The translations under genes and the position numbers were made by a program. This document shows, piece after piece, positions 4,997 to 64,000 of a DNA stretch of 64,000 nucleotides. Source of the DNA: Chloroflexota bacterium (GTDB lineage Bacteria > Chloroflexota > Dehalococcoidia > Lucifugimonadales > UBA3495); the NCBI GenBank assembly GCA_028875655.1, contig JAPPCX010000006.1, positions 1-64,000 of the forward strand, read 5' to 3'. The stretch's first letter is position 1, and each line of letters opens with the position of its first letter. The notes beneath the pieces were generated by a model. The model did no database searches. It worked only from the letters and a program-made list of their open reading frames with translations, and had not been told where the DNA came from.

Positions 4997-5019
4997 GGGG
5001 CGGGTATTCAACCCGCCCC
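4997..5019. terminator. Hairpin terminator between convergent genes
   Basis: GGGGCGGGT (4997-5005) pairs with ACCCGCCCC (5011-5019) around a 5-nt loop, followed on the forward strand by GAGTTTTG. It separates the aminotransferase from the convergent sdh genes and may serve both strands. Confidence 0.7.
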
Positions 5020-5045
5020 TGAGTTTTGCGTAATCTCGAACCGTT

Positions 5046-5924: not shown

Positions 5925-5953
5925 TGGTTCCTCCTCATTGCTCAAACGCAGCG

Positions 5954-6958
5954 CTATCCGAACGGCGAGTTGTTGCTCACCTTGGCGGCCTCGGGTTCCG
6001 GCTGCGTGCGGGCGAAAATGCGTCGCACGGCATCCACGTTCTCCACGTTCTTGTGCGCGATCGGCGGCATCTTGCCCCGCCGCATCGCCCTGAACGCCAC
6101 CGGCATGTAGTCCATCAGCGCCGGCAGGTTCATCATCCCCACCGACTTGATCGGCAAGCGCAACTCGTCCAACCGCCCGCTGTGGCCCACCGACTCCGTA
6201 AAAGCGTCCGTGTGCCGCGCGCCGTTGTTGTTGTCGTAGCCGGCCTGGATCGCTTGCTCCCGCATCGCCATGATGCGGTCCATCGGAGCCACGCCCTTGG
6301 GGCACGCCTGCACGCATTCGTTGCAGCGCGTGCAGTCCCAGATGCCGGTCGGCTCGCTCAACGCCCACAGCCGTTCCATGGAAACGCCTTCGGCGTCACC
6401 ATCACGCGGGTCGGCGGTGAACCGGTACGCCTTTGCTAGCGCGGCCGGCCCCAGGAACGTCGGGTCCACCTCCAGCACCGTGCAGTCCGACACGCACGCG
6501 CCGCACATGATGCAGGCCGTAACGCCGGACAGATGCAGCATCGCCTCGTTGGACACGATGTATTCGCCTTCCGGCTCCTGGCCCATGTGCTTCAGGTACG
6601 GATCGACCGCTTCAATTTTCTCCCAGAAGAGATCGAAGTTGACCACCAGGTCCTTGACCACCGGCATTACGCCGGCCGGCTCCACCGCAATGACCCCGTC
6701 CTGCACCACCGTGTTTGCGATGGTCTTGCAGGCCAACCCCGCGTGTCCGTTTATCCTAACCGCGCACGAGCCGCAGATCGCGCTTCGGCACGAGCACCGC
6801 AGCGACAGTGTGCCGTCGTCGTCCTCCCGAATCTGAATCAACGCATCCAGGACCGTCGCGTTGTCCGCGATTGTGACGGGATAATCCTGCCAGTACGGCA
6901 AGCGGCGTTCGTCTCCCGCTTCCGGGTCCTGTCGTTTTACCCTGATTGTGACATCCAT
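5954..6958 (-). CDS. sdhB: Succinate dehydrogenase/fumarate reductase iron-sulfur subunit
   Basis: Carries electrons from the flavin subunit through three Fe-S clusters. The N-terminal plant-type ferredoxin domain has C57, C62, C65 and C77 for the 2Fe-2S cluster. The C-terminal half has CIMCGAC (C148-C158) and [14 protein letters not shown] (C208-C218) for the other two clusters. At 334 residues it is longer than the usual 230-260, with a C-terminal extension of roughly 80 residues. It lies 3 bp after sdhA. No SdhC/SdhD membrane-anchor genes are present next to it; the HdrB-like gene occupies that place. Confidence 0.93.
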
Positions 6959-47834: not shown

Positions 47835-49028
47835 ATGGACATCTCAGGCCCCCTGACGGGCATCAAGGTTCTAGATCTCAGCGAAGACATCGCCGGGTCG
47901 TTCTGCGCCAGATTGCTGGCCGATTACGGCGCTGACGTTCTCAAGGTTGAACCTCCCAGCGGGTCGGCCATGCGCGGCTTCGGGCCGTTCTACCACGACG
48001 ACCCGCACCCCGAAAAGAGCCTGTTCTTTCTTATCCTGAACTTGAACAAGAAAGGCATCACTCTGAATCTTGACTCCGCCGCTGGACGCCGGCTGCTCTT
48101 GGAATTGATCCCCCACGTGGATTTGGTTGTCGAGAGCTACCAGCCGGGGTATTTGGCCGGCTTGGGCATCGGCTACGACGAACTCGCCAGGATCAACCCC
48201 GGCTTGGTGATGACCTCTATAACCCCCTTCGGACAGACGGGACCGTACAGCGAGTACGCCGGCGAGGAGATTGTCTCTTATGCCATGGGGATGGTAATGG
48301 GCATCAGCGGCGTCCAGGGTCGTCCCCCTTTGAAGCACGGTGGGTTCCAGGCCCAATACCAGGGCGGGCTTTTTGGAGCCGGCGCCACCGCCATGGCCCT
48401 GTTCGCGCAAGACCGGCACGGTATCGGCCAGCACGTGGACGTTTCCATCACAGAGTGCGTGGCGTCAACCATGATGGCCACCCAGACCATCTACCCCTTC
48501 ATCGGCGGCGTGCAGATTCGACGGGCCGACGGCACCATGTGGGAAAATCCCATGCCTTGTAAGGACGGCTGGATCATTGTCCAGGCAGGCGGCGGTGCCA
48601 CCTGGGAGGACATCGCCGATTTCTTCCAGGCTCCCGAGTTGCTGGAACCGCGTTTTGCCGACCGCGCCCAAAGGGTCCGCAACGGCCCCGCTATGGATCA
48701 GGTGGTGCTGGACGCCATCCGCGACCGTGAAAAGTGGGAACTGTTTCCCAAAGCGGCGGAAAAGCGCATGCTGTTCGGTCTGGTGCAAACTCCGTCCGAA
48801 CTGGCCGAATGCCCCCAACTGGAATCTCGCGAGTTCTATCGTGAAACCGAGCACCCGGTGATTGGCAGGGTCAAAGTCCCTGCTGAGCTGTTCCGCATGT
48901 CCCCCGACGGCTACCAGTTGCGCATGCCCGCCCCTACGTTAGGCCAGCACAATCGCGAAGTCTTCGTCGATGGTCTTGGCTACAGCGCGGCGCAACTATC
49001 CGTGATGCGGCAATCTGGCATTATCTGA
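47835..49028 (+). CDS. CaiB/BaiF family CoA-transferase, catalytic Asp replaced
   Basis: 397 residues. VLDLSEDIAGSFCARLLADYGADVLKVE and ITPFGQTGPYSEYAG are the family blocks. Where the catalytic aspartate is expected (compare ADEIAGVFGA in the 22452 gene), this protein has QAQYQGGLFGA, apparently lacking the Asp. It may be a subgroup with a different nucleophile or an inactive member. No clear ribosome-binding site precedes the ATG. The next CoA-transferase follows after 49 bp. Confidence 0.85.
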   Translation: MDISGPLTGIKVLDLSEDIAGSFCARLLADYGADVLKVEPPSGSAMRGFGPFYHDDPHPEKSLFFLILNLNKKGITLNLDSAAGRRLLLELIPHVDLVVESYQPGYLAGLGIGYDELARINPGLVMTSITPFGQTGPYSEYAGEEIVSYAMGMVMGISGVQGRPPLKHGGFQAQYQGGLFGAGATAMALFAQDRHGIGQHVDVSITECVASTMMATQTIYPFIGGVQIRRADGTMWENPMPCKDGWIIVQAGGGATWEDIADFFQAPELLEPRFADRAQRVRNGPAMDQVVLDAIRDREKWELFPKAAEKRMLFGLVQTPSELAECPQLESREFYRETEHPVIGRVKVPAELFRMSPDGYQLRMPAPTLGQHNREVFVDGLGYSAAQLSVMRQSGII

Positions 49029-49077
49029 AAATGGGCATCTCTGAACGGAGCGACTCACTGAACGGAGCTATCCACCT

Positions 49078-50430
49078 ATGCCATCGCTGCCACTGGAAGG
49101 AATTCGTGTTTTGGATTCCACTTACGTCTTTGCTCTCCCCTACACCGGCGGTCAACTCGCGGACCTGGGAGCCGAGGTGATCAAAATCGAAGGGCCGGGC
49201 CGGCCGGACATCACGCGCGGCGGCGGCCTGTACGGGACCTTCCCCGACAACGAACCGGGCGAAGACTGGTGGAACCGTCCCTCCACCTATCAACTGCTCA
49301 ACCGCGGCAAGCGATCCCTGGTGCTGGATATGTCCCGGGAGGAAGGACGCGAGATTTTTCGTGAACTGGTCATGGTCAGCGACGTGGTGATGGAAAACTT
49401 TACGCCGCGAGTCATGCGTCGATGGGGACTTGACTACCCGAACCTGCGCAAACTGCGGCCCGACATTATCATGGTATCTAACACTGGTTACGGACACGGC
49501 GACGGGCCATACTCGTCCTACCCAGCGCAGGCGACCACCCAGGAGGGCACCCACGGTCACTGCTGGGTCACCGGCTATCCCGGCGACGAACCCTCCAAGG
49601 CCGGCCGGTCCTTTGTCGATTTTCTCTCCACTTGGAGCGCCATGCTCGCCATCGGGTCGGCCTTGCGCTACCGCAACCGGACCGGACGCGGTCAATGGGT
49701 CGATATCGGCATGTACCAGGCCGGGGTAATGTTCCTGTCCGAGTACCTCATGGATGCCATCGTGAACGGCCGCGAGGGCGAACGCATCGGCAACCGCCAT
49801 CCCTATCGCGCTCCCCAAGGTGCTTACCCGGCAGCCGGAGAAGACCAATGGATCGCCCTGTCCGTAGCGGACAACGAGCAATGGCGTACGCTGTGCCGGT
49901 TGATCGAACGGCCCGATTTGGCCGAGGACGAGCGGCTAAGCTCAGTACAGGGTCGCCAAACACGGCACGATGAAATCGATGATGCCATATCCGAATGGAC
50001 ACGCCATCACGACAAGTACGATCTGATGCACCGGATGCAGGCGGTCGGCATCGCCTCCGGTCCCGTGCTGAGCGGAAAGGATGTGCATTTTGACCCCCAC
50101 TACCGCAGTCGCAATTTCCTGGAGCGCGTCCAGTACCCCGAAGACAGCGGCATGGGGGAACGGATCATAATGGGCCGACCGTACAAGCTGTCGAAGACTT
50201 CTCTGGAAGTGCGGGGGCCGGCGCCGAAGTTTGGCCAGGACAATTTGGCCCTGCTGGAAACTCTCCTCGGCAAACCGTCCGAACGGGTCTCCGCCTGGGC
50301 CGACGAAACGGTTATCACCAACGTGCCCACCACCGGCGAACCTTCGCCTGCCCTGGACCCTCAGGAACTCGTGGACCGGCGGCAGCTGGCCGAGTGGGAT
50401 CCGGAGTACCGGAAGCGTTTGGGAATCTGA
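49078..50430 (+). CDS. CaiB/BaiF family CoA-transferase
   Basis: 450 residues, longer than usual. Blocks are IRVLDSTYVFALPYTGGQLADLGAEVIKIEGPGRPD and the second half FVDFLSTWSAMLAIGSALRYR, which retains an Asp where expected for the catalytic residue. The C-terminal 50 residues are an extension. It is the second of a pair with the 47835 gene; the two may form a hetero-oligomer, as some type III transferases do. A tRNA follows. Confidence 0.88.
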   Translation: MPSLPLEGIRVLDSTYVFALPYTGGQLADLGAEVIKIEGPGRPDITRGGGLYGTFPDNEPGEDWWNRPSTYQLLNRGKRSLVLDMSREEGREIFRELVMVSDVVMENFTPRVMRRWGLDYPNLRKLRPDIIMVSNTGYGHGDGPYSSYPAQATTQEGTHGHCWVTGYPGDEPSKAGRSFVDFLSTWSAMLAIGSALRYRNRTGRGQWVDIGMYQAGVMFLSEYLMDAIVNGREGERIGNRHPYRAPQGAYPAAGEDQWIALSVADNEQWRTLCRLIERPDLAEDERLSSVQGRQTRHDEIDDAISEWTRHHDKYDLMHRMQAVGIASGPVLSGKDVHFDPHYRSRNFLERVQYPEDSGMGERIIMGRPYKLSKTSLEVRGPAPKFGQDNLALLETLLGKPSERVSAWADETVITNVPTTGEPSPALDPQELVDRRQLAEWDPEYRKRLGI

Positions 50431-50477
50431 ACATCGTTGACGATTCTGCCGCCGGGGAATACCCTGAATATCCCCGT

Positions 50478-50552
50478 GGGCCCGTAGCTCAGCGGTAGAG
50501 CGTCCGACTCATAATCGGCAGGTCACAGGTTCGAACCCTGTCGGGCCCACCA
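50478..50552 (+). tRNA. tRNA with CAT anticodon (Ile2 or Met elongator)
   Basis: Acceptor GGGCCCG/CGGGCCC, D-stem GCTC/GAGC, anticodon loop CTCATAA, T-loop TTCGAAC, and CCA encoded. The stem around CTCATAA (CCGA/TCGG plus a T-C mismatch) has no initiator G:C triplet. Together with the tRNA at 26344, the window has two CAT tRNAs, of which one is probably Ile2 (lysidine). Confidence 0.93.
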
Positions 50553-50652
50553 TCTTCCATTTGAGACCTGACCAGGTTTGAACTCCTCCGCGGTCAGCGT
50601 AGCCCTTTAACCTAAGTCTTGAACTCTGTATTGGTAGCGTCCGTAAAAGCTG

Positions 50653-50680
50653 GCGGAGCGAGCTTTGGCTCCCGCTCCGC
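50653..50680. promoter_or_regulatory. Stable hairpin in the leader of the PKS operon
   Basis: GCGGAGCG (50653-50660) and CGCTCCGC (50673-50680) are perfect 8-bp arms, with an inner AGC/GCT pair around TTTG. It lies about 50 bp before the PKS start, without a T-run. It may be a leader structure or attenuator; the promoter itself is not clear. Confidence 0.4.
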
Positions 50681-50728
50681 TACACTCCCGCTGCTAGCCT
50701 CTGAACTGGCGATGAACAGGTGGAAATA

Positions 50729-53700
50729 ATGGAAACGCATACTGGCTTTAAGGGGGATCTTGTGCCCGAGTTCCACGGCAGCAGTACACAAAGATTTCCT
50801 ATTCAGGAGCCGATAGCCATCATCGGGATGGCTTGCAGGTTCCCCAAGAGCAGGAGCATTGCAGAGTACTGGCAGCTGCTAATCAACGGCGTAAACGCAG
50901 TAGTCGAGGGGCCACCCGGTTCCGTTATCGGACGCACGGGGCACCACTTTCCGGATTCCAACGCCAGAAATGATGCCGTCCGGTTCGGCGCATTCGTCGA
51001 AGACATTGAACAATTCGACGCCGAGTTTTTTCGCATCTCCCCACTGGAGGCGCAGTTGCTCGACCCCCAGCAGCGCATGATGCTGGAGACAACCTGGCAA
51101 GCGCTGGATGACGCAGCGATTGACTCAGATACCTTGAGAGGGAGTCGAACCGGGGTTTACGTCGGCATTAGCAACTACGACTATCGGGACATGACCATCG
51201 ATTCCCCCGAGACTGCCGAGCCTACGGGTGGTCTTTACGCCGTGACCGGCACTGCCCTGAACACGGCCATTGGTAGGGTCGCCTTTGCACTGGGTCTAGA
51301 GGGCCCGGCGTTGGCCATTGATACAGCCTGCTCATCCTCATTGGTTGCCATCCATCAGGCTGTCGGCGGCCTACAGCGCCGGGATGCGGACCTGGCGATT
51401 GCGGGAGGAGTGCACCTTTTCCTGGACGGACGCGCGCTTGACCTGCGCGCCAACGCCGGAATGATGTCTCCCGAGGGGCAGTGCAAAACTTTCGACGCGT
51501 CAGCAGACGGATTCGTCTGCGGCGAGGGCTGCGGGCTTGTCATCCTCAAACGCCTGAGCGAGGCGGAGGCCGACGGCGACCGTATTTGGGGCGTCATCCG
51601 GGGCACTTCGGTCAATCAGGATGGCGCTAGCCAGGGCCTTACGGTGCCCAGCGGCCCATCTCAGGAACGAGCTATCGAAGAAGCGATAGCCCGCGCGGGA
51701 CTCTTACCGTCCGACGTTGACTACCTGGAAGCCCACGGCACAGGCACGGTAGTTGGCGATCCTATTGAGTTGAATGCCGCAGCCTCCGTGTACGGCCGCG
51801 GCCGCGATCCCGACCGTCCGATACTGGTTGGTTCCGTCAAGACCAACATCGGCCACCTGGCTCCTGCCGCAGGCGTCGCCGGTTTGATTAAGGCCGTGCT
51901 GGCGATGCGGCACGGAGCAATTCCGCCTCATCTAAACTTCAGTGTCCCGAACCCTCGCATAGATTGGGACAACCTGCCGGTGCGCGTGACTGACGTAACT
52001 ACGGAGTGGCCGGCGCATCCTGACCGGCCACCGGTGGCTGGAGTTAACTCCTTTGGCTGGTCCGGCACGAACGCGCATCTAGTGGTTCAGGGATACGGGA
52101 AGCCGGTCATCGCTCGCAACCCCGCTGAGATGTCTCTCCCCTCGGGCCCTGCCCTGCCGGTGGCCTCAACCCCTGAACAGTCAGGCGAACCCGGCTTGCG
52201 CGTAACACGCTTTCTTCCCTTGTCCGGCAAATCGCCGCAGGCACTGCGGGACTCGGCATCAGATTATCTGGCCTGGCTTCACGCTAAAGCCGATGAGATT
52301 GCATCTGAGACCGCTGGCGAGGCAACCCTGTCTGATATGGCTTGGACGGCCTCGGTTGGCAGGAGCCATTTCCCCCATCGGGCCGGTGTAGTATTCAGCG
52401 ACTCCGTGCAGTTGCAGGAAAGATTGTGCGCGCTGATAACCGGAGAGGCTCCGGAAGGCAGCGCGCAGTCACACGACCCCAGGAAGGTGGCGTTCGTTTT
52501 CACCGGACAGGCGAGTCAATGGGTTGGCATGGGCGAAACTCTGTATGAGAGAGAGCCTGTGTTCCGTTCGGTCCTTGACGATTGCGACCGCTTGATTTAC
52601 ACAGAGCGAGGCGTCTCGCTGCTGGACGTAATGTTCGGCCGTAACGGTACCGAGGGCCTACTGGATGAGCCGGTATGGACCCAACCCGCCATTTACGCGC
52701 TGGAATGCGCGCTGACCGCGCTTTGGGAAAGTGTCGGTGTCAAGCCCAGCCTGGTTGTCGGCCACAGCCTGGGGGAAGTTGCGGCATCTCAGGCGGCCGG
52801 CGTGCTCACGTTGGAGGAAGGGCTCCGGTTTGCGTCGGCCCGCGGCCTGCTGTTGGGAGCTACACGCTCCGATGGGGCTATGGGGGCTGTGTTCGCGCCC
52901 GCCGAGCGTGTCGCCGCAGTGGTGCAAGAGCACAACGCGAATTCGGGCGACGTCGGCTTGAGCGTCGCGGTGGACAACGGGCAACAACAGGTGGTGAGTG
53001 GCCCTGCGAATGACGTTGAGGTGGTGCTGCAACTCTTCGAATCTGAAGGTACCCGTGTAGTTCGTCTGCGCAAAAGCCCCGCGTATCATAGCGCGCTGAT
53101 TGAGCCGGCATTGGACGACCTGGAAGCTGCTTTCGCAGCCATAGTGCCGGCGCCTCCGGCCGCTTCCGTGCCGCTGGTGAGCAACATTAGCGGCAAGCCG
53201 CTCGACAGTAGCGAACGTATGAACGCCGCCTACTGGCGGCGTCAGGCGCGTAGCCCGGTAGCCTTCCGCGCTTGCGTTGAGACCCTGGCCGCAGTGGGCG
53301 TTGATGCCGTCATCGAGATCGGCCCTCACGCAGTGCTCGGACCGGTGGTCTCAATGACGTGGCCTGATTTCGCGTCGGCAGGGCCTCCGGCAATCCTGGC
53401 AAGTTTGCGTCGCCCGCCACGCGATGTTGAGGAGCCATTTACAGACACCAGCGGCGGCTTTGTGGAGGCGACGGCCGGAGCTTACGAGGCCGGCCTGCAT
53501 CTGGATTTTAACGGTTTGTTCGCAGGAGAGGGCAGGCGCCGGATTTCCATTCCCAGCTACCCGTTCCAGCGTACTCATCATTGGGTACAAGCGTCCCGGC
53601 GCCAACGGCGAGCAGCCGGGCACCCACTGCTGGGCGCCCGACACGAGTCGCCTCGGGGCGAGGTGATGTACGAAACGGAGCTGTTTCCTGATGATCCCTC

Positions 53701-56700
53701 CTGGTTGCCGGACCACCTGGTTTACGAGAAGGTGGTCGCCCCCGGTGGAATGTTTGGCGCCATGGCCGTGGCGGTGTCCTTTGCCGAACTGAAAGGCTCG
53801 GCGGTTGTGGACGAAATGCAGATGCACAGCCCGTTGATATTGGAGGACCAGCAGGAAGATGCGGCGAACGACGCGGGTCGCAGGGTACAGTTTGTCCTCG
53901 ACGCGCCGGCCAGCAACTCAACCCGCCGGTTCGAGATTTTCAGCAAGGGAGAAAATGAAGAGGGCTGGACACTGCACGCCGATGGAACGCTGTCCCCGTC
54001 CGCGTCAGACTCCGGTGACGGTGCTCCTATAGACCTGGATGAGCTCTGGGCCGACTTGGAGCCGCAAGACCCCGCGGGTTTCTATCGGATGCGATCGGCA
54101 ACTGACATCTACCTCGGCCCGTCTTATCACACCCTCAGAGCAGCTTGGGCCGGGGAAGGAGAGTCCCTGGGCGAGCTCGTATTGCAGGACTCGGTAGATG
54201 CCGGTGGCGTGGAGATGCACCCGCTCCTGCTGGATGGTTGTTTTCAGGTGCTATCGCTTGGCCGTTATCTCACTGGTGTTGAGCATGGCGCGGTTTATAT
54301 GCCATTCGGCTGGGAACGTTTATGGGTCAATGGCCCCATGCCGGAACGAACGGTATGCCACGCCATACTGAGAACCCCTCCTGCCACCAACGGAGCCGCC
54401 GCGCCGCAGACGCCGCCGGAGGTCTTGACCGGAGACGTTTGGCTCTATTCGGAGAACGGTGCTCCCATTGGCGGCTTGCAAGGCTTTACCGTCAAGCGCG
54501 CGACCCGGGCGGCGCTGCTCTCCGCCAGAGACGGCCTGAAAGACCTCATCTATGAAGTTGTCTGGCGGGACAAACTTCAGGGGAAAGCATACCCCTCCGA
54601 CTTTTCTGCCAGTCCGGCGGAGATTGCGAGCGGGTCACAAACCCTTGTGGATTACCTGGCAGACGAGGGGATCAGTGAGCGAGATCGGACCGAATTCTTG
54701 AAGGACCTTGAGCGGCTCTCGCAATCTTACGCGCTCTCTGCGCTGCAACGACTGGGGTGGGAGTGGAGAGCCGGCGCGTCAGTATCTCCTGAGCGCTTGC
54801 GTTCACAGCTGAGAGTGGTGGACGAGCACCGGCGTCTCTTCGGGCGGCTCCTTCAAATGCTGTCCGATGCCGGCGTGTTCGCTCCCTCCAGTGAAGGGTT
54901 TGCAGTCCGAGTGGGAGCCGGCGACGACCTCCCGGACGAAGCTATCGGCAACCCCCAATCTCTGGCGGATGAACTGGTGGCAAAGCACCCCCATGGGAGC
55001 AACGAACTTGGTCTGCTTCGCCGCTGTGGTTTGGCTCTCGCCGACGTACTGACCGGAAGCCTCGACCCTCTGCCCTTGCTATTCGGCGACGACGGGCCCG
55101 GCGCAGCTGACCTGTACCTCAGGGCGCCGGCATCTCTGGCAGCGAACCGGATGCTGGGAGATACCGTGGCCAAAATTGTAGCCAGCTTACCGGAGGAGCG
55201 CCGGCTACGGGTGCTGGAGGTCGGCGCGGGCACTGGCTCGGCGACTGCGGCCGTCCTCCCGGTTTTGCCCGAAGACAGATTCGAGTACACCTTCACCGAC
55301 ATCTCCGCGGGGTTTTTCGCCCAGGCCGAAGAACGTTTCGCTTCTGCCGGTGCGTCCATTGACTACTATCCGCTGGACATCGAGGCTGACCCTGCTGCAC
55401 AGGGCTTCAACCTGCACGGTTACGACCTCGTGATAGCAGCCAATGTCCTGCACGCCACGCGGGACCTTGGCGAAACCCTTGCTCATTGCCGTAGTCTTCT
55501 GGCTCCGTCAGGCCAGTTGATTGCGCTTGAGGGGCTGCAGCACCGGGCCTACCAGGACCTGACCTTCGGTCTTCTGGATGGATGGTGGCGTTTTGCCGAC
55601 GAGTACCGGCCTGACCATGCTCTTGCAACTCCCGTCGTATGGGAGGAAGCGCTGGCCGACGCTGGATTCTCAAGCGCCGCGTTTGTAGGTCTTTCCAACC
55701 CGCACATCGACGAGCCACTGGGTTCGGGCGTCATTATCGCGCAGGGGCCAGCCGAAGTGGATTTTGCCCCCGGCCTATGGGTAATCACCGCCGATAAGCG
55801 TGGCAGAGCGACGGAAGTTGCGGACGCTCTCGCCTCACGCAATCAAACGGTAATCATCGCCGCGCACGATTCGGCCGCATACACAAGCGCCGGCGTTATG
55901 GCCTCGGCGGTTGAGTTGACAAACCGGGAGTCGTGGCAACGCTTGTTTGAAGACCTGCCCGGCGACGTGCCGTTCAAAGGCGTGGTGCATCTCATAGGCC
56001 TGGACGGGCACGGTGCGATGGCCAGTGCTCCGGAAATGGTCGAGGACATAACGCACGCCGGAGCCAGCGCTCTGGCGCTCGTCCAGGGCATCATTGATGC
56101 CGGCGCAACGCCCGCCGAAGGCGTATGGTTCGTTACACAGGGAGCCTTGGCGCTGGAGGATGACTACCTTACTCGGGAGTCCGGAGAGCTTGCCGGAGCG
56201 ACCTTATGGGGGTTCGCTAAAGTGGTGGCGCTGGAAGCAAGCCACCTTTATCCGAGGGTGATAGACCTTGACCCGGTTGCCAGGGAGTCGGCAATCAACA
56301 ACCTTACGGAAGAACTCCTCTTTCCCGACGCGGAGAACCACGTCGCCTATCGGGGAGGCCGGCGTCAAGTCGCCCGTCTGGTTCGCAATGATGCCAACGG
56401 TATGCGACTGGTCGTGCCCGAGGACAGGGAATGGGTCATCGGCCCCGGCGACCCTGAAGCGGGCCTGGCCGCTCTGCTCGTAAAGCCTCAACCTGAACGC
56501 GCCCTCGAGTCCGGCGAAGTTCGGATTGCCGTTGAGTCCATGGGACTCAACTTCGCCGACGTTCTACTGAGCATGGGCGTAGTCGAGTACACGCTGGAAG
56601 TAGGGCGCGAGGTCTATGGACGCATCATCGAAACTGCTGACGACGTTCAAGGTCTTTTACTGGACGACCCTGTCGTCGCCATGGGGTTTGGTGGATTTAC

Positions 56701-59700
56701 GCCGGAGATGGTCACACTGGCCTCGATGGTAGCGAAAGTTCCCGACGGATATGCTGCTCCGGCTCTTGCCACTGTCCCCATCTGCTACGTCACCGCAGAG
56801 CTGGCTTTTCGCATGGCGGATCTCAAGGCCGGCGAGCGTGTCCTCATCCACGCCGCCAGCGGCGGTGTCGGACTTGCTGCCATCCAGTTGGCCCGGGCTA
56901 TCGGCGCCGAAGTATTTGCCACCGCCAGCGCGCCAAAGCAGGCTTACCTGCGCTCCCTTGGTGTTGAGCACGTCTTTGACAGCCGGCAAACTACATATGG
57001 CGAAGAGATTCTGAGCGCCACCCGAGGTGAGGGTGTTCACCTCATCCTCAACAGCTTGACCGGTGAGGGCTTCATTGAATCGAGCCTTTCTTGCCTGGCG
57101 CCGAACGGCCGATTCGTTGAGATTGGCAAGCGTGGCATCTGGAGTGAAGCCGAGATGGACGCATACCGGCCGGATGTCGGATACACCATCCTGAATGTGG
57201 ACGTCTTGAAGAGGTACGACCCGGACATTGCCGGTGCCTCTCTTGCCAGGGTCATGGCCCGCCTGGCGAAAGGAGAGTTGACCCCGCTGCAGCACAACGT
57301 CTGGCCTCTTACTGACATCCGGTCAGCTATGAACGTCATGCGAACAGCGCGACATATCGGCAAGAACGTGTTCCGCATGCCGCCTCTGGCCAGGGGAAGC
57401 CTCCGCAGGGACCGTACGTACCTCGTAACGGGAGGACTTGGCGGCATCGGCTGTCAGGTTGCCCGCTGGCTGGCAGAGAACGGAGCCGGAATTATCGTTC
57501 TCAACGGCCGTCGCGCTCCTGACCCCGCGGCCGAAGCGGTGATTCGCGAACTTCGGGAAGCCGGCGCGGACGTCCGCGTCGAACTGGCCGACGTTGCGGA
57601 CCCCGCCGCCGTTGCCAATATGCTGGCCCGCTTGGACGAAGCGCTGCCGCCTCTCGCCGGCGTGATACACAGCGTGGGCGTGCTGTCGGATGGCGTCATT
57701 GAAAACCAAACCTGGGACCGCTTCCAGCAAGTGCTGTGGCCCAAAGTTCTCGGCGCATGGCACTTGCACCAGGCCACTCGGAACCGGAATCTGGAAATGT
57801 TCGTGCTGTTCTCCAGCATCACCGGCGTTCTGGGCAATTCCGGGCAGGCTAATCATGCGGCAGCCAACTCTTTCCTTGACCAATTGGCAGCCCATAGACG
57901 GGCTCAGGGACTTCCCGGGCAGGCCATCGCCTGGGGCGCTTGGTCTGGGGTCGGCGAAGCGGAGGAGCAACGTGAGCGGATTGAGCGGCAGCTGGCGTAC
58001 GCCGGAACGGGATGGCTGACGCCCCAACAGGGCATAAAAGCCTTCGACTGGCTGATCAGGCAGGACCTGACCACGCCAACGGTTACCGCGGTTGACTGGG
58101 CGGTTGTCTCCGAGAGTCTGGAATCCCCGTCGCCCTTCCTGGAAGACATCCTCGTCGCGTCCAGCAATCGGGAGCGACCCGCGGCTGCTAACACTTTTGC
58201 TGCCGGCCTGCTGACACAGCTGCGGGAATCTTCGGCAACGGAGCGCGAGAGCCTGTTGTTGTCGTTCATCCAGCAGGAATTGAAGGCTGTACTCAGACTC
58301 CCGTCTTCGCCGTCGCCTTCGGTCAGTTTCTTCGACCTGGGTATGGATTCCCTGATGGCTGTGGAGTTGCGCAACCGAGTCAACCGTGCGCTTGCCGGTG
58401 AGTACACGGCCTCCAACACCGTGGTATTTGACTATCCTAACGCCGCAAGTCTTGCTGGGCACCTGGCGAGCGGGCTGGAGGCGCTGACCGGCCCCGCCCC
58501 GGCGACGCAGCCGACCGTGCGGCCAAGACGCCCCCGGGTTACGGGGAGCGAAGAACCCATCGCCATCGTGGGCATGGCGTGTCGGTTCCCCGGCGCTCCT
58601 GACATCGACGCCTTCTGGCGTCTATTGGAGCAGGGCGGGGACGCAGTTACGGAAGGACGTACGGATTCCGGTTCGTGGCGGGGTACGCTCGGCGACCCCA
58701 ACGACGAGAACGCCATCTATCGCCGGGGAGCGTTTGTGGATGGCATCGACCTGTTTGACTCGCGGTTCTTCCGCATTTCACCAATTGAGGCACGGCAGAT
58801 GGACCCTCAGCAACGAATGCTGTTGGAGACCACGTGGGAGGCTCTTGAGGACGCTGCTATCGATCCGTACAGCCTGGCCGGCAGTCGAACCGGCGTATTT
58901 GCTGGCGTTGGCGGCAGTGAATACCGGGACCTGATTGCCTCCAGGGGCCAGGAGTACAGCTACTCCGGCACTAACGAAGCTGTGACTGTTGGGCGAGTTG
59001 CTTTTGCTCTGGGTCTGGAGGGGCCTGCCATACCTATTGACCTGGCTTGCGCTTCTTCATTGGCGGCGGTGCACCAGGCGGTCGTAAGCCTGCAACGGAC
59101 TGAGGTTGACTTAGCCATCGCTGGTGGAGTCAACGCCATCCTGTCTCCCAGGATCACAGAGTTCCTGATGGATATGGGGATGCTGTCTCTCAGCGGTCGC
59201 TGCCACGCGTTCGACGCCGCGGCAGATGGTTTTGTCCGCGGCGAGGGTTGCGGCATGGTCGCTCTCAAGCGTCTCAGCGACGCCGAAGCAGATGGCGATC
59301 GGATCTGGGCCGTTGTCCTGGGCTCAGCTGTGAATCAGAATGGCACGAGCGCCGGGATGATGGCACCAAACGGGCCTGCCCAGGCGCGTGTCATGGAAGA
59401 CGCTCTTGCCCGGGCCGGCGTTGTCCCCTCAGAAATTGACTACCTGGAGGCGCAAGGCGTAGGCAGCGAATTTGGCGACCCTATTGAACTGAACGCTGCG
59501 GCAAATGTGTACGGCAAGGACCGTGACGAAGCGCGCCCCTTGCTTGTCGGATCGGTCAAGACCAATATCGGACATTTGGAATGGGCATCGGGAATTGCCA
59601 GCCTGCTCAAGACGGTGCTGGCGATGCGCAATAAACTGATTCCCAGAAACCTCCATTTCAATGACCCAAGTCCCAATGTGGAGTGGGACCGGTTGCCGGT

Positions 59701-60544
59701 GCAGATAATCACTGAGTCCACGGATTGGCCTTCCCGTTCCAATGGGCAACAACTGGCGGCCGTAAATACCTTTGGCCTTTCGGGAGCCAACGCGCACGTA
59801 GTGGTGGCAAGCTACGGGGACTCCGCTGACGGCAAGGGCACATCGTGGCCGGTAGGCTCCGCTCGGCCGCTAGTAGCCCCGGAACCGAACGGCCATTCCG
59901 TCACCCCCCCTGCGGACCTTACGGAACGCACAACAAGGCTCCTGCCTCTGTCGGGCAAGACGCCGCAAGCTTTGCGGGACTTGGCCCAACGTTACTTGGA
60001 ACATCTGAAGGGCATCCGGTCTGAATCAATTACAGATGCCGAACTGCTCGCAGACATGGCGTGGACAGCGGCAGTAGGCAGGAGCCACTTCCCCTTCCGC
60101 GCCGGGATTGTGTTCAACGACGCCGACGAACTTCGCGAGAAGCTCGAAAATCTGGCCGCCGTACCGGTCGATACGGATTATCAAGCGCTGCCCGAAGCGC
60201 CGAAAGTTGCTTTCGTCTATACCGGGCAGAACAGTCTACCGCTTGAATGCGCTCTCACGGCTCTCTTGGAAAGCGTAGGCGTGAGCCCCATTGTGAGTGG
60301 CGAAGACTACGCGCAGGCGCTGGCTGAGCTGGATGTGGACACTGTGGTTCAAATTAGCGCAGGCCCGGATCCCGGCAAAGCGTTTATAGACGCAGTTGCT
60401 AAGGGATACGAGGCAGGCTGCAAGATAGCCTTCACGGGCTTGTTCGCCGGGGAATCACGCCGGCGCGTACCCCTGCCGAGCTACCCGTTCCAGAGGCGGC
60501 GGCATTGGATTGACCCGCCAAAGGCTTCCGCCCCGGCTTCTTGA
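50729..60544 (+). CDS. Type I polyketide/fatty acid synthase, KS-AT-DH-MT-ER-KR-ACP-KS*-AT*
   Basis: 3271 residues. KS1 (25-456): C201, H336, H376. AT1 (589-870): S680 in GHSLGE; substrate motif PAYH (784-787), not HAFH or YASH. DH (965-1260): H996 and D1169, with Glu1000 where HxxxGxxxxP has Gly. C-methyltransferase: EVGAGTGS (1497-1504). Structural KR: about 1680-1890. ER: GGVGL (2045-2049). KR: GGLGGIG at 2235, H2376 in place of the usual Tyr, N2380. ACP: S2541. KS2 (2610-3031): C2774, Q2909 for His, H2949. AT2: relic (3095-3265) lacking GHSxG. No TE. Expected product: a methyl-branched, reduced chain made iteratively (inference). ATG 50729 follows AGGTGGA. Confidence 0.93.
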   Translation: METHTGFKGDLVPEFHGSSTQRFPIQEPIAIIGMACRFPKSRSIAEYWQLLINGVNAVVEGPPGSVIGRTGHHFPDSNARNDAVRFGAFVEDIEQFDAEFFRISPLEAQLLDPQQRMMLETTWQALDDAAIDSDTLRGSRTGVYVGISNYDYRDMTIDSPETAEPTGGLYAVTGTALNTAIGRVAFALGLEGPALAIDTACSSSLVAIHQAVGGLQRRDADLAIAGGVHLFLDGRALDLRANAGMMSPEGQCKTFDASADGFVCGEGCGLVILKRLSEAEADGDRIWGVIRGTSVNQDGASQGLTVPSGPSQERAIEEAIARAGLLPSDVDYLEAHGTGTVVGDPIELNAAASVYGRGRDPDRPILVGSVKTNIGHLAPAAGVAGLIKAVLAMRHGAIPPHLNFSVPNPRIDWDNLPVRVTDVTTEWPAHPDRPPVAGVNSFGWSGTNAHLVVQGYGKPVIARNPAEMSLPSGPALPVASTPEQSGEPGLRVTRFLPLSGKSPQALRDSASDYLAWLHAKADEIASETAGEATLSDMAWTASVGRSHFPHRAGVVFSDSVQLQERLCALITGEAPEGSAQSHDPRKVAFVFTGQASQWVGMGETLYEREPVFRSVLDDCDRLIYTERGVSLLDVMFGRNGTEGLLDEPVWTQPAIYALECALTALWESVGVKPSLVVGHSLGEVAASQAAGVLTLEEGLRFASARGLLLGATRSDGAMGAVFAPAERVAAVVQEHNANSGDVGLSVAVDNGQQQVVSGPANDVEVVLQLFESEGTRVVRLRKSPAYHSALIEPALDDLEAAFAAIVPAPPAASVPLVSNISGKPLDSSERMNAAYWRRQARSPVAFRACVETLAAVGVDAVIEIGPHAVLGPVVSMTWPDFASAGPPAILASLRRPPRDVEEPFTDTSGGFVEATAGAYEAGLHLDFNGLFAGEGRRRISIPSYPFQRTHHWVQASRRQRRAAGHPLLGARHESPRGEVMYETELFPDDPSWLPDHLVYEKVVAPGGMFGAMAVAVSFAELKGSAVVDEMQMHSPLILEDQQEDAANDAGRRVQFVLDAPASNSTRRFEIFSKGENEEGWTLHADGTLSPSASDSGDGAPIDLDELWADLEPQDPAGFYRMRSATDIYLGPSYHTLRAAWAGEGESLGELVLQDSVDAGGVEMHPLLLDGCFQVLSLGRYLTGVEHGAVYMPFGWERLWVNGPMPERTVCHAILRTPPATNGAAAPQTPPEVLTGDVWLYSENGAPIGGLQGFTVKRATRAALLSARDGLKDLIYEVVWRDKLQGKAYPSDFSASPAEIASGSQTLVDYLADEGISERDRTEFLKDLERLSQSYALSALQRLGWEWRAGASVSPERLRSQLRVVDEHRRLFGRLLQMLSDAGVFAPSSEGFAVRVGAGDDLPDEAIGNPQSLADELVAKHPHGSNELGLLRRCGLALADVLTGSLDPLPLLFGDDGPGAADLYLRAPASLAANRMLGDTVAKIVASLPEERRLRVLEVGAGTGSATAAVLPVLPEDRFEYTFTDISAGFFAQAEERFASAGASIDYYPLDIEADPAAQGFNLHGYDLVIAANVLHATRDLGETLAHCRSLLAPSGQLIALEGLQHRAYQDLTFGLLDGWWRFADEYRPDHALATPVVWEEALADAGFSSAAFVGLSNPHIDEPLGSGVIIAQGPAEVDFAPGLWVITADKRGRATEVADALASRNQTVIIAAHDSAAYTSAGVMASAVELTNRESWQRLFEDLPGDVPFKGVVHLIGLDGHGAMASAPEMVEDITHAGASALALVQGIIDAGATPAEGVWFVTQGALALEDDYLTRESGELAGATLWGFAKVVALEASHLYPRVIDLDPVARESAINNLTEELLFPDAENHVAYRGGRRQVARLVRNDANGMRLVVPEDREWVIGPGDPEAGLAALLVKPQPERALESGEVRIAVESMGLNFADVLLSMGVVEYTLEVGREVYGRIIETADDVQGLLLDDPVVAMGFGGFTPEMVTLASMVAKVPDGYAAPALATVPICYVTAELAFRMADLKAGERVLIHAASGGVGLAAIQLARAIGAEVFATASAPKQAYLRSLGVEHVFDSRQTTYGEEILSATRGEGVHLILNSLTGEGFIESSLSCLAPNGRFVEIGKRGIWSEAEMDAYRPDVGYTILNVDVLKRYDPDIAGASLARVMARLAKGELTPLQHNVWPLTDIRSAMNVMRTARHIGKNVFRMPPLARGSLRRDRTYLVTGGLGGIGCQVARWLAENGAGIIVLNGRRAPDPAAEAVIRELREAGADVRVELADVADPAAVANMLARLDEALPPLAGVIHSVGVLSDGVIENQTWDRFQQVLWPKVLGAWHLHQATRNRNLEMFVLFSSITGVLGNSGQANHAAANSFLDQLAAHRRAQGLPGQAIAWGAWSGVGEAEEQRERIERQLAYAGTGWLTPQQGIKAFDWLIRQDLTTPTVTAVDWAVVSESLESPSPFLEDILVASSNRERPAAANTFAAGLLTQLRESSATERESLLLSFIQQELKAVLRLPSSPSPSVSFFDLGMDSLMAVELRNRVNRALAGEYTASNTVVFDYPNAASLAGHLASGLEALTGPAPATQPTVRPRRPRVTGSEEPIAIVGMACRFPGAPDIDAFWRLLEQGGDAVTEGRTDSGSWRGTLGDPNDENAIYRRGAFVDGIDLFDSRFFRISPIEARQMDPQQRMLLETTWEALEDAAIDPYSLAGSRTGVFAGVGGSEYRDLIASRGQEYSYSGTNEAVTVGRVAFALGLEGPAIPIDLACASSLAAVHQAVVSLQRTEVDLAIAGGVNAILSPRITEFLMDMGMLSLSGRCHAFDAAADGFVRGEGCGMVALKRLSDAEADGDRIWAVVLGSAVNQNGTSAGMMAPNGPAQARVMEDALARAGVVPSEIDYLEAQGVGSEFGDPIELNAAANVYGKDRDEARPLLVGSVKTNIGHLEWASGIASLLKTVLAMRNKLIPRNLHFNDPSPNVEWDRLPVQIITESTDWPSRSNGQQLAAVNTFGLSGANAHVVVASYGDSADGKGTSWPVGSARPLVAPEPNGHSVTPPADLTERTTRLLPLSGKTPQALRDLAQRYLEHLKGIRSESITDAELLADMAWTAAVGRSHFPFRAGIVFNDADELREKLENLAAVPVDTDYQALPEAPKVAFVYTGQNSLPLECALTALLESVGVSPIVSGEDYAQALAELDVDTVVQISAGPDPGKAFIDAVAKGYEAGCKIAFTGLFAGESRRRVPLPSYPFQRRRHWIDPPKASAPAS

Positions 60545-60625
60545 CCTTGACTCATCTGTGCCAGGCAGATAACATTTCTTACCTTGATGATCCATTCACC
60601 AAGGAAGAAAAGGAGTGTAGCTAAA

Positions 60626-60871
60626 ATGCCATCAACAGCGGAGCGTGTTCAGAGACTCGTGGTCGAAAATTTGGAAATTGACGGCAATCCGATAAGCGAG
60701 CCTGTGGATATGAACAGCAGCCTCGTCGACCTTGGCTTGTCGTCTATGGACGCCGTCGCTTTTGCCAGACTGGTCCAAACGGAGTTTAACGTCAAGTTCA
60801 CTCCAGATCACTGCGGGCAACTGGCGAATCTGTCGGCGTTGGTTGAATTTCTGGATTCCAACGGCGGATGA
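60626..60871 (+). CDS. Free-standing acyl carrier protein
   Basis: 81 residues. The 4'-phosphopantetheine serine is S40 in DLGLSSMDAV. It is acidic and helical, as carrier proteins are. The start at 60626 is chosen because AGGAG lies 10 nt before it; an in-frame ATG at 60584 would add 14 residues without one. It lies between the PKS and PPTase and is a likely acceptor for the chain or a donor of starter units. Confidence 0.9.
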   Translation: MPSTAERVQRLVVENLEIDGNPISEPVDMNSSLVDLGLSSMDAVAFARLVQTEFNVKFTPDHCGQLANLSALVEFLDSNGG

Positions 60872-60878
60872 CACCTCC

Positions 60879-61622
60879 ATGGTAAGGGGGCGATCCTCGC
60901 CAAAACCCGTCGCTCCCAATCCTCACCATTGGTGGAGCGCGCTTCGCGAAATCGGCTCTATCAGAGTAATTTGGGTTGACCTGACGCCCTACGCCAGCCG
61001 TGAGGCGTCAGCTTTTTCGTGGCTCGACGAAAGTGAGCGGGACCGCTGGCGCCGCTTCCAGTACCCGGGCCCGCGTCGCCGGTTTGCATTGTGTCACGCG
61101 GCGCTTCGGTCCCTGCTTTGCTCGTATCTGCAATGCACGAATGAGCAGCTCGCTTTCGACTCCACCCGCTACGGCAAGCCGTTCGCTATGGTGGACGGCG
61201 AAAAAGCTCCCGTCAGCTTCAACGTGAGCCACAGTGGCAAGCACGGACTGATTGCGTACGCGCCGAAAGGACGGTTGGGTGTTGACGTTGAGGAGCTACT
61301 TGCCAGACGCGACACCGAGCTGCTGATTGATGCGGTATGTGGCCCCGCCGAACAGGCTGACCTTGCGCTGGTGCACGGGTGTCACAAGATTCGGCTGTTC
61401 TACAAACTCTGGACCATCAAAGAGGCCCTAATCAAGGCCGTTGGCGTGGGCTTTTCGTGCGACGTGTCCCAGTTTGAAGTTCCTCGGGCCCTGCGTGGTG
61501 GCACGGCGGGAGATTTTGTGTTCCCCCAGGTTCCGACGGAGCGATGGCAGGTGCAATACCTGGGCAACAGGGAATTTGCCGGAGCCATCGCCTACGAAGT
61601 AGGTTGTGAAGCGAGGTTTTGA
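60879..61622 (+). CDS. Sfp-type 4'-phosphopantetheinyl transferase
   Basis: Converts apo-ACP to holo-ACP using CoA. 247 residues. GVDVEE (D136, E138) binds magnesium, and WTIKEALIKAVGVG (W178, K181, E182) is the second signature. SFNVSHS is the CoA-binding motif. The start at 60879 lies 7 bp after the ACP stop. It probably serves both the PKS ACP and the free ACP. Confidence 0.93.
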   Translation: MVRGRSSPKPVAPNPHHWWSALREIGSIRVIWVDLTPYASREASAFSWLDESERDRWRRFQYPGPRRRFALCHAALRSLLCSYLQCTNEQLAFDSTRYGKPFAMVDGEKAPVSFNVSHSGKHGLIAYAPKGRLGVDVEELLARRDTELLIDAVCGPAEQADLALVHGCHKIRLFYKLWTIKEALIKAVGVGFSCDVSQFEVPRALRGGTAGDFVFPQVPTERWQVQYLGNREFAGAIAYEVGCEARF

Positions 61623-62527
61623 TGGTGACCACCGAAGCCATTTGGGAGGTTCCGGAGCCGCTGTCCACTTCCGAAGTACGGGTGGACGACGACGCGGTCA
61701 TTACGGTACGGCAGCATGGGAACCCTTCAGGTCAGCGGCTGATCCTTAGCCATGGAAATGGCCTCGCGATTGACCTGTACTATCCCTTCTGGTCGCTCTT
61801 GCTGGAGGATTTCGAGCTGATAGTCTATGACCTCCGAAATCACGGATGGAACCCCGTGAGCGTCCTGGAAAACCATACGCTGCCCACATTTGTTGAGGAC
61901 CATGACAAAATTCTTGCTGCAATAGACAGAGACTATGGCAGCAAGCCGAAGATAGGCGTATTCCACTCGATTTCTGCCCTTGCCTCACTGTTGTCGGCCA
62001 ATAAGGGCAGCGACTTCGCGGCGCGCGTGCTCTTTGACCCACCCCTTTGCAAGCCAGGGCGCGGATACGTGGAATTTGAGGAGGCAGCAGAGCGCGTGTC
62101 TGCGATGACTCGCCGCAGAACGCCACGATTTGAAACTCGGGAAGAGCTGGCGTCAGTTTTACCGTTGCTACCGCTTTTCCAGAACGCAGTGCCCGGAGTT
62201 GCCGATCTCTTTACCCGGACGACACTCCGTGAAAGCGACACCGGAGAGGGATACGTGCTCCGATGCCCCAGAGAGTACGAGGCTCAAATCGTTCAGTACG
62301 CCAGCACATTCGCGGTACTGGTCGATTTCGACTCGGTGCTCTGCCCCACTAAGGTTATTGGAGCCGACCCGACCCTGCCGTTCTCGTTCTTGCCCAGTCT
62401 CGACCTCAGCGACGCGATAACGGTAGGCTATGACTTCCTGCCAAACGCTACCCACCTTCTGCAACTGGAACAGCCAAAGGAATGCGTCGAGCTGATGCGC
62501 GAATTCCTCGAATCCGTCACAGGCTAG
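61622..62527 (+). CDS. Alpha/beta-hydrolase-like protein of the PKS operon
   Basis: 301 residues with an alpha/beta-hydrolase layout: oxyanion segment ILSHGNGLA, strand-4 DLRNHGWNP, C-terminal NATHLLQLEQPKE with the histidine. The nucleophile elbow reads VFHSISAL (S116), where the small residue usually before HxSxG is Phe and the Gly after it is Ser, so catalytic form is unusual. Its ATG overlaps the PPTase stop by one base (TGATG). The natural guess is a trans-acting thioesterase or acyl transferase that releases the PKS product, since the PKS has no TE domain. Confidence 0.75.
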   Translation: MVTTEAIWEVPEPLSTSEVRVDDDAVITVRQHGNPSGQRLILSHGNGLAIDLYYPFWSLLLEDFELIVYDLRNHGWNPVSVLENHTLPTFVEDHDKILAAIDRDYGSKPKIGVFHSISALASLLSANKGSDFAARVLFDPPLCKPGRGYVEFEEAAERVSAMTRRRTPRFETREELASVLPLLPLFQNAVPGVADLFTRTTLRESDTGEGYVLRCPREYEAQIVQYASTFAVLVDFDSVLCPTKVIGADPTLPFSFLPSLDLSDAITVGYDFLPNATHLLQLEQPKECVELMREFLESVTG

Positions 62528-64000
62528 CCCTCCACACGCACCGTGACGACGTCCATCCCGTGGTACTTCTGGTGTTTCACTGAAGAGGCGTAGTGTCTGA
62601 GGAGGCGGAACGAAATCTCTCTTTCGTCCACCGTCTCGGATTCTTCCTCAAGATACGCGAGACGGTCGCCTAGGTTTTCTTCCTCCAATACGGAAACAAA
62701 CTCCAGGTCCACCGCTCTTCCGTCGGGGCGCGCCGAAATCACCAGCCGCGGCCGATTAGTCCCCGATTCGACTTCCGAAAATACGTTCTCAGGTTGCAGC
62801 AAACTCGACAGCGTTTCTTCGCCCGCCGAGCGAAGCCGATCGGTTGAAGACTCATTCCATCCCATCCTGCCGGCGAGATCCTTCAAGAAGGCGTCAATCC
62901 TGGGGAGTTCCGAAAAATCCAAGCGGGCTCGCAGTCGTCTGGGACGCGGGCCGGTCAGCTCCATGAAAGCAGTGAGCGTGACCGCCGTCAGTGTTCCCAC
63001 CGTTAGCCCGTTTCCAAGCAACGTGTCCCAAGGCGGTATGAGAAGCCCGGCGAAGACGTTGTGATGTTGCATGCCCGCTCCGGCGGCGAATGACAGGCCA
63101 ACGATTAAGGCTTTGGAAACATCCAGCCCATCCCGGATTATAGATTGGATGCCTTCCATGAAGAGCAGACCAAGGGCAATCAGCAAAAAGCCGCCCATCA
63201 CCGGACTGGGAATGGTGAGGAGCGCGCCGGTAAACTTTGGGAAAAAGGCCATCACCACCAGTAACGCGGCTATGGCGTATCCTACTGAGCGAGCGGCTAC
63301 ACCGGTGAGGTTCACCAGCGACGCCGTAAGCGAGGAATAGTAAGTCATCGGCGGCGTTCCGGCTATTCCCGACAGCAAGGTTCCGATGCCGTTGGCATAC
63401 AGCGAGCCTTGCAGCAAGCGGTAATCAGTGGCCCCCGGCCGGCGCCGGGATACCTGTTGAATAGCCATTCCGTCTCCGACTCCCTTAATGGCCTGAACCA
63501 GGGTGACTATCAAAAACATCGGTATCAGAGCCCAGAATCCGGCTGTCGGCGTGAAGTGCAGCCCCGGGAACCCGGCGCGAGGGACCCCAATCCAGGCTGC
63601 GGCATATAGCGAATCGAGTTCGTAGATGCCGAACAGCGCTGCCGCCACGCAGCCACTGCCGATTCCCAGCACCAGCGCCCATGGGCGCCATTGCCTGGGA
63701 GCGCGCAGGGCCAGAATCATCGATACGGCGATTGTCACCGCGGCCACGCCCAGAGCGGCGGAATCCGGCGCTCCCTCGGGCACTTCTCGCAGCCTGTCCA
63801 GGGCAAAGGGCAGGATCAGGACAGCGAGCAGCATAAGCAACGTGCCAGACACCACCGGCGTAATTATCCGGCGTAACAAAGGTAACCAAGTTGCCACTGC
63901 GCAGAAGAAAAGCGCTGAAATTACGATGAGGCTGGCTAACATGGCCGGCCCTCCCTCATTCAACGCCAGGATGGAAACTGCGATGTAGTTGGGGGTAGTG
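62524..64000 (-). CDS. NCS2/xanthine-uracil permease fused to a GHKL-ATPase-like domain (5' end outside window)
   Basis: The reading frame is open to the window edge, so roughly the first 100 residues are missing; an in-window TTG at 63963 is not a likely start. The N-terminal part has PPV.GTL-like LLRRIITPVVSGTLLML, the GGP and PPMTYYSSLTASLVNLTGVAARSVG blocks of NCS2 nucleobase transporters. The C-terminal 150 residues are soluble: DAFLKDLAGRMGWNESSTDRLRSAGEETLSSLLQ looks like the N-box helix of a histidine-kinase-like ATPase (SpoIIAB/RsbW type), though the G-boxes are poor. A transport-sensing fusion is possible. It is convergent with the PKS operon and shares 4 bp of its end with it. Confidence 0.75.
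   Translation of the reverse strand, partial: TTPNYIAVSILALNEGGPAMLASLIVISALFFCAVATWLPLLRRIITPVVSGTLLMLLAVLILPFALDRLREVPEGAPDSAALGVAAVTIAVSMILALRAPRQWRPWALVLGIGSGCVAAALFGIYELDSLYAAAWIGVPRAGFPGLHFTPTAGFWALIPMFLIVTLVQAIKGVGDGMAIQQVSRRRPGATDYRLLQGSLYANGIGTLLSGIAGTPPMTYYSSLTASLVNLTGVAARSVGYAIAALLVVMAFFPKFTGALLTIPSPVMGGFLLIALGLLFMEGIQSIIRDGLDVSKALIVGLSFAAGAGMQHHNVFAGLLIPPWDTLLGNGLTVGTLTAVTLTAFMELTGPRPRRLRARLDFSELPRIDAFLKDLAGRMGWNESSTDRLRSAGEETLSSLLQPENVFSEVESGTNRPRLVISARPDGRAVDLEFVSVLEEENLGDRLAYLEEESETVDEREISFRLLRHYASSVKHQKYHGMDVVTVRVEG

Follow-up and report, generated by a model that had tools for sequence, protein, structure and literature searches.

A probable sup-type polyketide synthase cluster with a decayed second acyltransferase beside a tRNA-Met gene of a Chloroflexota bacterium

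We analysed a stretch of 64,000 nucleotides of a Chloroflexota bacterium (contig JAPPCX010000006.1, assembly GCA_028875655.1; the window), which contains a gene cluster built around a type I polyketide synthase (PKS) resembling the sup clusters of sponge symbionts. The genome comprises 3.45 Mb in 123 contigs, and the window sits on a 66.6-kb contig. A first-pass annotation, made from the sequence alone, had described four forward genes at 50729-62527 with short gaps or overlaps, encoding a PKS, a free acyl carrier protein (ACP), a phosphopantetheinyl transferase (PPTase) and a hydrolase. The open frames and Pfam matches bear out this gene set (Table 1). SupA and ACP genes are separated by 81 bases, ACP and PPTase genes by 7 bases, and the PPTase and hydrolase genes overlap by one base. 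The extent of the locus had been drawn too narrowly, since a permease gene on the opposite strand and the tRNA-Met gene at its start were overlooked. Past the hydrolase, the Xan_ur permease on the opposite strand is followed by a second permease on the forward strand. SupA and SupE are published names, and SupB, SupC and SupD are our working names for the ACP, PPTase and hydrolase, whose gene starts were chosen by family alignment.

The SupA frame (50720-60544, forward strand) has no internal stop, and the synthase is unbroken by frameshift. The ATG at 50729 is a likelier start than the GTG at 50720 and gives a protein of 3,271 residues; residue numbers used here begin at the GTG. Pfam identified two ketosynthase (KS) domains, one full acyltransferase (AT), a dehydratase (DH), a C-methyltransferase (cMT), an enoyl reductase (ER), a ketoreductase (KR) and one ACP, with support far above chance (ketoacyl-synt 1e-161, KR 4e-66), in keeping with the single reducing and C-methylating module that had been proposed. 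The catalytic Ser and His of the first AT (AT1) are present, as are the motifs of the cMT and the ER. After the second KS, Pfam finds a CurL-like linker and a KS C-terminal extension, and no match to a second AT. The set has no thioesterase domain, and a search of the genome at E<=1e-5 matches no other PPTase of this kind; both points agree with the first-pass annotation, which had called the PPTase private.

Table 1. Coordinates of the features at the sup locus.
Feature	Position	Strand	Evidence and remarks
tRNA-Met	50478..50552	+	ARAGORN; flank match to the empty-site genome ends at 50550; 3' end is the left border of the inserted block
Inserted sup block	50551..64000 in the window, on to ~64451 of the contig	.	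empty-site alignment with G008
SupA-type PKS, KS1-AT-DH-cMT-ER-KR-ACP-KS2-AT2 relic	50729..60544	+	single open frame, Pfam
KS2, residues 2612-3029	58553..59806	+	Cys2777 and His2952 present; Gln2912 replaces the first catalytic His
AT2 relic, KS-AT linker and post-AT linker to YPFQRRRHW	59900..60541	+	alignments, AlphaFold model, Foldseek
SupB-like free acyl carrier protein	60626..60871	+	Pfam PP-binding 1e-8; carrier Ser present; family alignment
SupC-like phosphopantetheinyl transferase	60879..61622	+	Pfam ACPS 3.5e-14; family alignment
SupD-like alpha/beta-hydrolase	61622..62527	+	Pfam Abhydrolase_6 2e-13; HGNG, FHS nucleophile, GADP and ATH motifs
SupE-like permease, Xan_ur family	62524..64000, on to 64308 of the contig	-	Pfam PF00860 3.6e-40; C-terminal domain of unknown kind

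The sup type was reportedly defined by Fieseler 2007, and SupA has a methyltransferase. In the published work, sup is a small monomodular PKS with mid-chain-branched fatty acids as proposed product (PMC4245539), and Chloroflexota, Spirochaetota, Proteobacteria and Acidobacteriota all have members with such clusters, seemingly independent of taxonomy (PMC9426513). The PKS of the window cluster is likewise a monomodular one of type I that combines reductive domains with a cMT. The product proposed for Sup is a methyl-branched fatty acid; the window cluster shares the monomodular form and the permease with the published clusters, and perhaps their distribution over sponge symbionts of several phyla (PMC4245539, PMC9426513, PMC4210886, PMC3908369). 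The permease is likened to SupE (ABE03914), itself described as a permease (PMC3908369), by description. The window copy differs in a Gln for the first His of KS2 and in a strongly shortened second AT (AT2); no difference in kind is known to us.

A scan of named genomes gave 79 loci. In 22 of them (L003-L020, L023, L024, L032 and L033) the same protein is encoded, its best segment being 48-57% identical to SupA of the window, and the match runs from about residue 30 to about residue 3270 in all 22. Contig ends cut the SupA genes of L005, L018 and L024. The 22 metagenome-assembled genomes (MAGs) are labelled Chloroflexota, Gammaproteobacteria, Gemmatimonadota, Bryobacterales, Binatia, Latescibacterota, Rhodobacteraceae, Actinomycetes, Terriglobia, Rhodothermales and Deltaproteobacteria, and their bin names resemble those of sponge studies (PMC8163846, by the names only). 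From the company that the cluster keeps we infer a sponge habitat for the host. The other 57 loci match SupA at 28-47%; from these we used the KS domains below and, for two small checks, the ATs and KRs. Among the host's relatives, SupA was found in 9 of 60 genomes including its own (8 of the 59 others), and the own genome has one SupA match at 1e-50. Over the 22 loci and these 8 genomes together, identity to the window SupA spans 48-60%.

When the neighbours of SupA were clustered over 31 loci, the commonest families were the hydrolase (18 loci), permease (12), ACP (10) and PPTase (7), then a sulfatase-containing family (5) and several families at three loci, a thiamine pyrophosphate (TPP) enzyme included. 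Counted by similarity to the window genes, with the window itself included, the numbers are 19, 14, 17 and 11, respectively, one of the 11 PPTase neighbours being a fragment. In the 20 loci flanked on either side by 3 kb or more, again with the window, they are 16, 11, 14 and 9. The order and strand of the partner genes vary among loci. The likeness to the Sup type noted in the first-pass annotation is supported, and domain order, tail and most neighbours agree across the family. Its further suggestion of a distinct variant is not supported, because the KS2-AT2 tail recurs in 27 aligned tails (window counted) and in L100, and because the hydrolase is so frequent a neighbour. By domain order, tail, neighbours and published descriptions, the window cluster most likely belongs with the ordinary sup clusters.

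Two other assignments were weighed. No relative found exceeds 54-60% identity to the window SupA, and the sup comparison used family members from the scanned genomes rather than deposited SupA sequences, which might favour a new PKS type outside Sup. Most other family pairs are, however, 55-70% identical as well, and the recurrence of tail and partner genes across the family rules against a distinct type, which we regard as very improbable. A swf-type cluster was considered because Swf is also a single-module PKS (PKS/FAS) of sponge symbionts, with a SupE-like permease near one swf fosmid cluster (PMC3908369). The Swf cluster is described as KS-AT-DH-ER-KR-ACP, with SwfA lacking a methyltransferase and carrying HATGT and an I/V in DPQQR, and with the partners SwfB (R and ST domains) and SwfC (PMC3908369). 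In contrast, the window KS1 has HGTGT and DPQQR, the protein has a cMT, and the flanking genes come from other families, which leaves swf with next to no probability.

The C-terminal tail of SupA was compared across the family. In KS1 of the family, the Cys and the first His are present in 26 of 26 sequences and the second His in 25. In KS2, the Cys and the second His are present in 30 of 30 and the first His in 28, being Gln in the window copy and in G011; HGTGT is intact in all 26 KS1 vs. 3 of the 30 KS2. We built a KS tree from 55 sup KS domains and 40 others, with an outgroup of loci brought in by the scan only. The KS1 group (26 and the KS of L024, a cut sup gene counted as sup) and the KS2 group (29) are sisters with support of 0.98 and 1.0, and they are joined with support 1.0. 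Mean identity is 57% between KS1 and KS2, 66% among KS2 and 70% among KS1, and the small gap between the last two suggests selection on KS2. The best AT match of the AT2 tails is a sup AT1 in 25 of the 25 tails with a match (L024 taken as sup). Because the two KS clades are sisters and the tails are nearest to sup AT1, the KS2-AT2 unit most likely goes back to one duplication of KS1-AT1 that preceded the spread of the family.

AT2 has since eroded to different degrees. At the Ser site, 23 of 27 aligned tails have a residue, never Ser, and four have a gap; no segment bearing the catalytic His remains in any of the 27, although L003 (frameshift) and L101 (contig end) cannot be judged. As far as sequence tells, AT2 is catalytically dead wherever it is readable, and the AT relic that the first-pass annotation saw at the end of the PKS is real. 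Tail length ranges from 187 to 464 residues; it is 263 in the window copy, where the family tail alignment places the catalytic part of the AT in a deletion, and two of the 27 tails (window counted) are little beyond linkers. Left out of this set were L100, whose AT2 is present and split by a frameshift, L010 (a misaligned piece), and L005 and L024, whose contigs end before a complete KS2-AT2. The K and G that appear at the AT1 Ser position in the rows of L003 and L010 belong to AT2 pieces, not to AT1. Of the 27 tails, 24 carry the post-AT linker motif [ILV]PxYPFx5W, and counting one variant raises this to 25; L003 and L101 lack it.

An AlphaFold model of the tail, made with a 26-row alignment, reached a predicted TM-score (pTM) of 0.82 and a mean per-residue confidence (pLDDT) of 75 for the best of five (the five span 52-75). 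The first Foldseek match was the KS-AT didomain of CurL (PDB 4mz0, E 1.4e-57), which has a full AT, unlike the tail. The best covered among the matches shown were AT-less KSs of the bacillaene synthase, with TM-scores by target length of 0.82-0.86. A similar motif, LPTYPFx5W, is characteristic of the flanking subdomain region in AT-less KSs of trans-AT PKSs (PMC11260071). In the model, erosion of AT2 would leave a KS with its flanking subdomain, like these AT-less KSs. SupA is not itself a trans-AT PKS, in which a stand-alone AT serves AT-less modules: its cis AT retains both Ser and His, and in the block, to which this search was confined, Pfam annotates no further AT gene.

The position of the cluster suggests how it arrived. 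In a sister genome (G008), positions 1-1828 of the matching stretch (L173) correspond to 48707-50550 of the window contig and positions 1822-3684 to 64452-66314, with nothing between. Since the alignment breaks at 50550 and resumes at 64452, the window genome has an extra block of ~13.9 kb, with SupA, ACP, PPTase, hydrolase and one permease. In G008 the second permease comes directly after tRNA-Met, and the neighbouring CoA-transferase is 94% identical to that of the window; G006 likewise has the tRNA followed by a permease, without sup. The two G008 matches overlap by seven bases of the tRNA end (ggcccac; the right end reads ggcctac). This overlap may stem from site-specific insertion or may be due to chance. 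Of ten genus relatives with the CoA-transferase, the eight examined have no sup genes in the stretch covered, which is short for G006. Gain of the block in the window genome is a simpler reading than loss in the relatives. The G+C content shows no notable difference (0.608 in the block vs. 0.617).

In G011, of the same genus, the sup block lies elsewhere, and 48 bases separate its permease from the 3' end of a tRNA-Leu (L105:2233-2367). In 8 of 13 comparisons with relatives, homology sets in at query base 11-12, where the tRNA ends, and in the others at 3-21. No clean empty site was found for this block, its flanks being far apart in G003, G004, G007 and G010 (one contig each). A tRNA beside sup is not supported as a general rule: in a survey of 34 stretches of other loci, only three have a tRNA within 0.6 kb of a sup gene. 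These are the tRNA-Leu of G011 and a tRNA-Glu of L006, 298 bases after SupA, both with the 3' end facing, and tRNA-Thr and tRNA-Phe of G022 with their 5' ends facing; elsewhere tRNAs are farther away or absent from the stretch. G032 belongs to another genus within the host family; there, SupA is found 2.1 kb away from the corresponding CoA-transferase/tRNA-Met site, and a TPP-enzyme gene separates the two (L099:225-12169). The CoA-transferase/tRNA-Met locus may be a hot spot.

We compared SupA with RpoB as a marker of host relationship. SupA is present in 3 of 14 genomes of the host genus, its own counted, and the RpoB proteins of G002 and G011 are 90% and 87% identical to the host's vs. 54-57% for SupA; together with the empty site, this argues that the block was acquired. 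Among 16 genomes, the best matches of the host RpoB are five Dehalococcoidia or Chloroflexi/Chloroflexota MAGs (1132-1231 bits, 59-64% identity), followed by L003 of the same phylum (831 bits, 58%) and ten MAGs of other phyla (604 bits or less, in shorter pieces, 55-61%). Over a common block of 334 RpoB residues, identity is 60-69% to Chloroflexota and 50-62% to the others. By RpoB, then, the host belongs to Chloroflexota and is probably close to Dehalococcoidia. For the 120 pairs, SupA and RpoB correlate with Pearson r of 0.44 (Mantel p 0.002) and Spearman of 0.15 (p 0.095); SupA thus tracks host phylogeny only weakly, the signal seeming, by inspection, to come from a few close pairs (L006-L023, L011-L020). 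SupA is 85% identical between L006 and L016 and 88% between L012 and L019, vs. only 59% and 65% for RpoB over the 334-residue block. Wrong binning of L016 and L019, both on contigs near 30 kb, is possible. On these comparisons, sup clusters have spread horizontally.

A working scheme can be proposed for the cluster. SupC would load phosphopantetheine onto the SupA ACP and SupB. KS1-AT with malonyl-CoA, cMT, KR, DH and ER may then iterate on the single ACP and yield a saturated, alpha-methyl-branched chain. A KS with the Cys and without the first His of HGTGT, as in non-elongating KS0 domains and in the window KS2, can carry an acyl chain and should not condense. KS2 would take the finished chain on Cys2777 and pass it unextended to SupB. 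This unloading step is proposed because of that residue pattern and a precedent in hangtaimycin, where a KS0 (KS3) was found by experiment to act as a Cys-dependent springboard between two ACPs, without condensation (PMC8456789). The window KS2 differs from trans-AT KS0 domains in that it most likely stems from a duplicated cis-AT KS-AT pair of the same synthase, with later decay of the AT, that no trans-AT gene lies in the block, and that the ACP proposed as acceptor is not part of the synthase polypeptide. SupD, in place of a thioesterase, might free the acid from SupB or transfer it, and SupE could conceivably move the product or a precursor across the membrane.

We think it fairly probable that this is a sup cluster at the 3' end of tRNA-Met, acquired as a compact block and working by these SupA to SupE steps. 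Several observations weigh against it. None of the four partner genes was found near SupA in 4 of the 20 well-flanked loci (L009, L016, G019 and G022), and no integrase was seen among the Pfam-annotated genes of the block. All 30 family KRs have His where the catalytic Tyr would stand (GQANHAAANAF or a near variant; position 57854 in the window), so that full reduction is not certain; the Asn is kept in 30 of 30 and the Ser in 30 of 31 rows. Only two KRs were found by motif in other loci, both in L031, one with Tyr and one with His. Finally, 28 of 30 KS2 domains keep the full Cys-His-His triad, and a transfer-only role may thus be special to the window copy and G011. The label of non-condensing in the first-pass annotation fits the window KS2 and does not extend to the family.

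The same triad would suit a KS2 that condenses. KS2 would then add a last malonyl unit carried by SupB, which could be charged with malonate, and give a beta-ketoacyl-SupB that SupD hydrolyses to a beta-keto acid, with possibly a methyl ketone to follow; the window copy would have lost this step. However, HGTGT is worn in KS2 and uniformly intact in KS1, SupA's own AT is the only one in the block, and the two Gln-bearing KS2 domains are not sisters in the tree, going by topology only and not by node support, which makes condensation seem dispensable. We consider a condensing KS2 unlikely. KS2-AT2 might instead be a catalytically idle relic of the duplication with a structural role in dimerisation or in contacts between synthases. 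The widely different lengths of AT2 agree with this, as does the linker motif that stays in every tail not frameshifted or contig-cut. The invariance of the KS2 Cys and second His in all 30 copies and a conservation nearly equal to that of KS1 speak against an idle tail, and we hold it to be quite improbable. Transfer of the chain through KS2 to SupB is the reading that we prefer for the window copy.

A wider idea, which we offer tentatively and would not yet bet on, is that Sup synthases are cis-AT enzymes becoming trans-AT-like through one tandem duplication of KS-AT in the ancestor and repeated erosion of AT2 as far as the flanking subdomain. The spare KS would gate unloading of the iterative module onto a free carrier, and the set would move between phyla in sponges as a compact block without an integrase that sometimes lands at tRNA 3' ends. 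The natural series of AT decay may bear on the origin of AT-less ketosynthases, and the empty site shows how sup clusters move between symbionts. The window cluster is a further member of the known sup clusters, and the features singled out earlier are standard in the family. What is new here is the duplication origin of the tail, the graded AT decay, the residue pattern of KS2 and the insertion documented by an empty site; the partial texts of the open-licence literature searched contained no statement of these four points, nor did they establish the sup product or the release step. Sup genes predominate when sponge microbiomes are surveyed for KS sequences, with over 99% of KS amplicons in one survey (PMC4245539).

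Some details of the partner genes may be added. The ACP alignment has 21 rows from 17 loci and the PPTase alignment 10 rows, window counted. In L008, L017 and L033, from Bryobacterales or Terriglobia MAGs, two or more free ACP genes, apparently of two kinds, lie near the hydrolase. The SupD-like hydrolase is 53-68% identical to 16 relatives and ~76% to that of G011, which is outside those 16; its AlphaFold model (mean pLDDT 43) was not used. SupD is not a strict marker of sup: hydrolase matches at 1e-60 occur in 26 of 301 genomes of a phylum sample, and no SupA-like gene lies beside second hydrolase copies in four neighbourhoods (own genome and three others). The own genome has a stand-alone homologue (47%; contig C29 of G000, L148:12347-13243) beside an acyl-CoA-ligase-like gene, with no SupA-like gene in the 20 kb examined there; it could be a housekeeping cousin of SupD. 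SupA lies in two frames in L003, L007, L010, L020, L023, L100 and L102, as does SupD in G002; sequencing error and decay cannot be told apart here.

The two Xan_ur permeases of the window contig are adjacent and face apart (L094:2524-4308 and 4522-6270). In both, the C-terminal ~150-180 residues lie outside the Pfam match, and matches to solved structures also end before them. Upstream in the window, at 42170-43993, there is an AIPR-domain gene, whose name implies the abortive infection/phage resistance type, and the G+C content is lower (0.567) over 40-44 kb around it.

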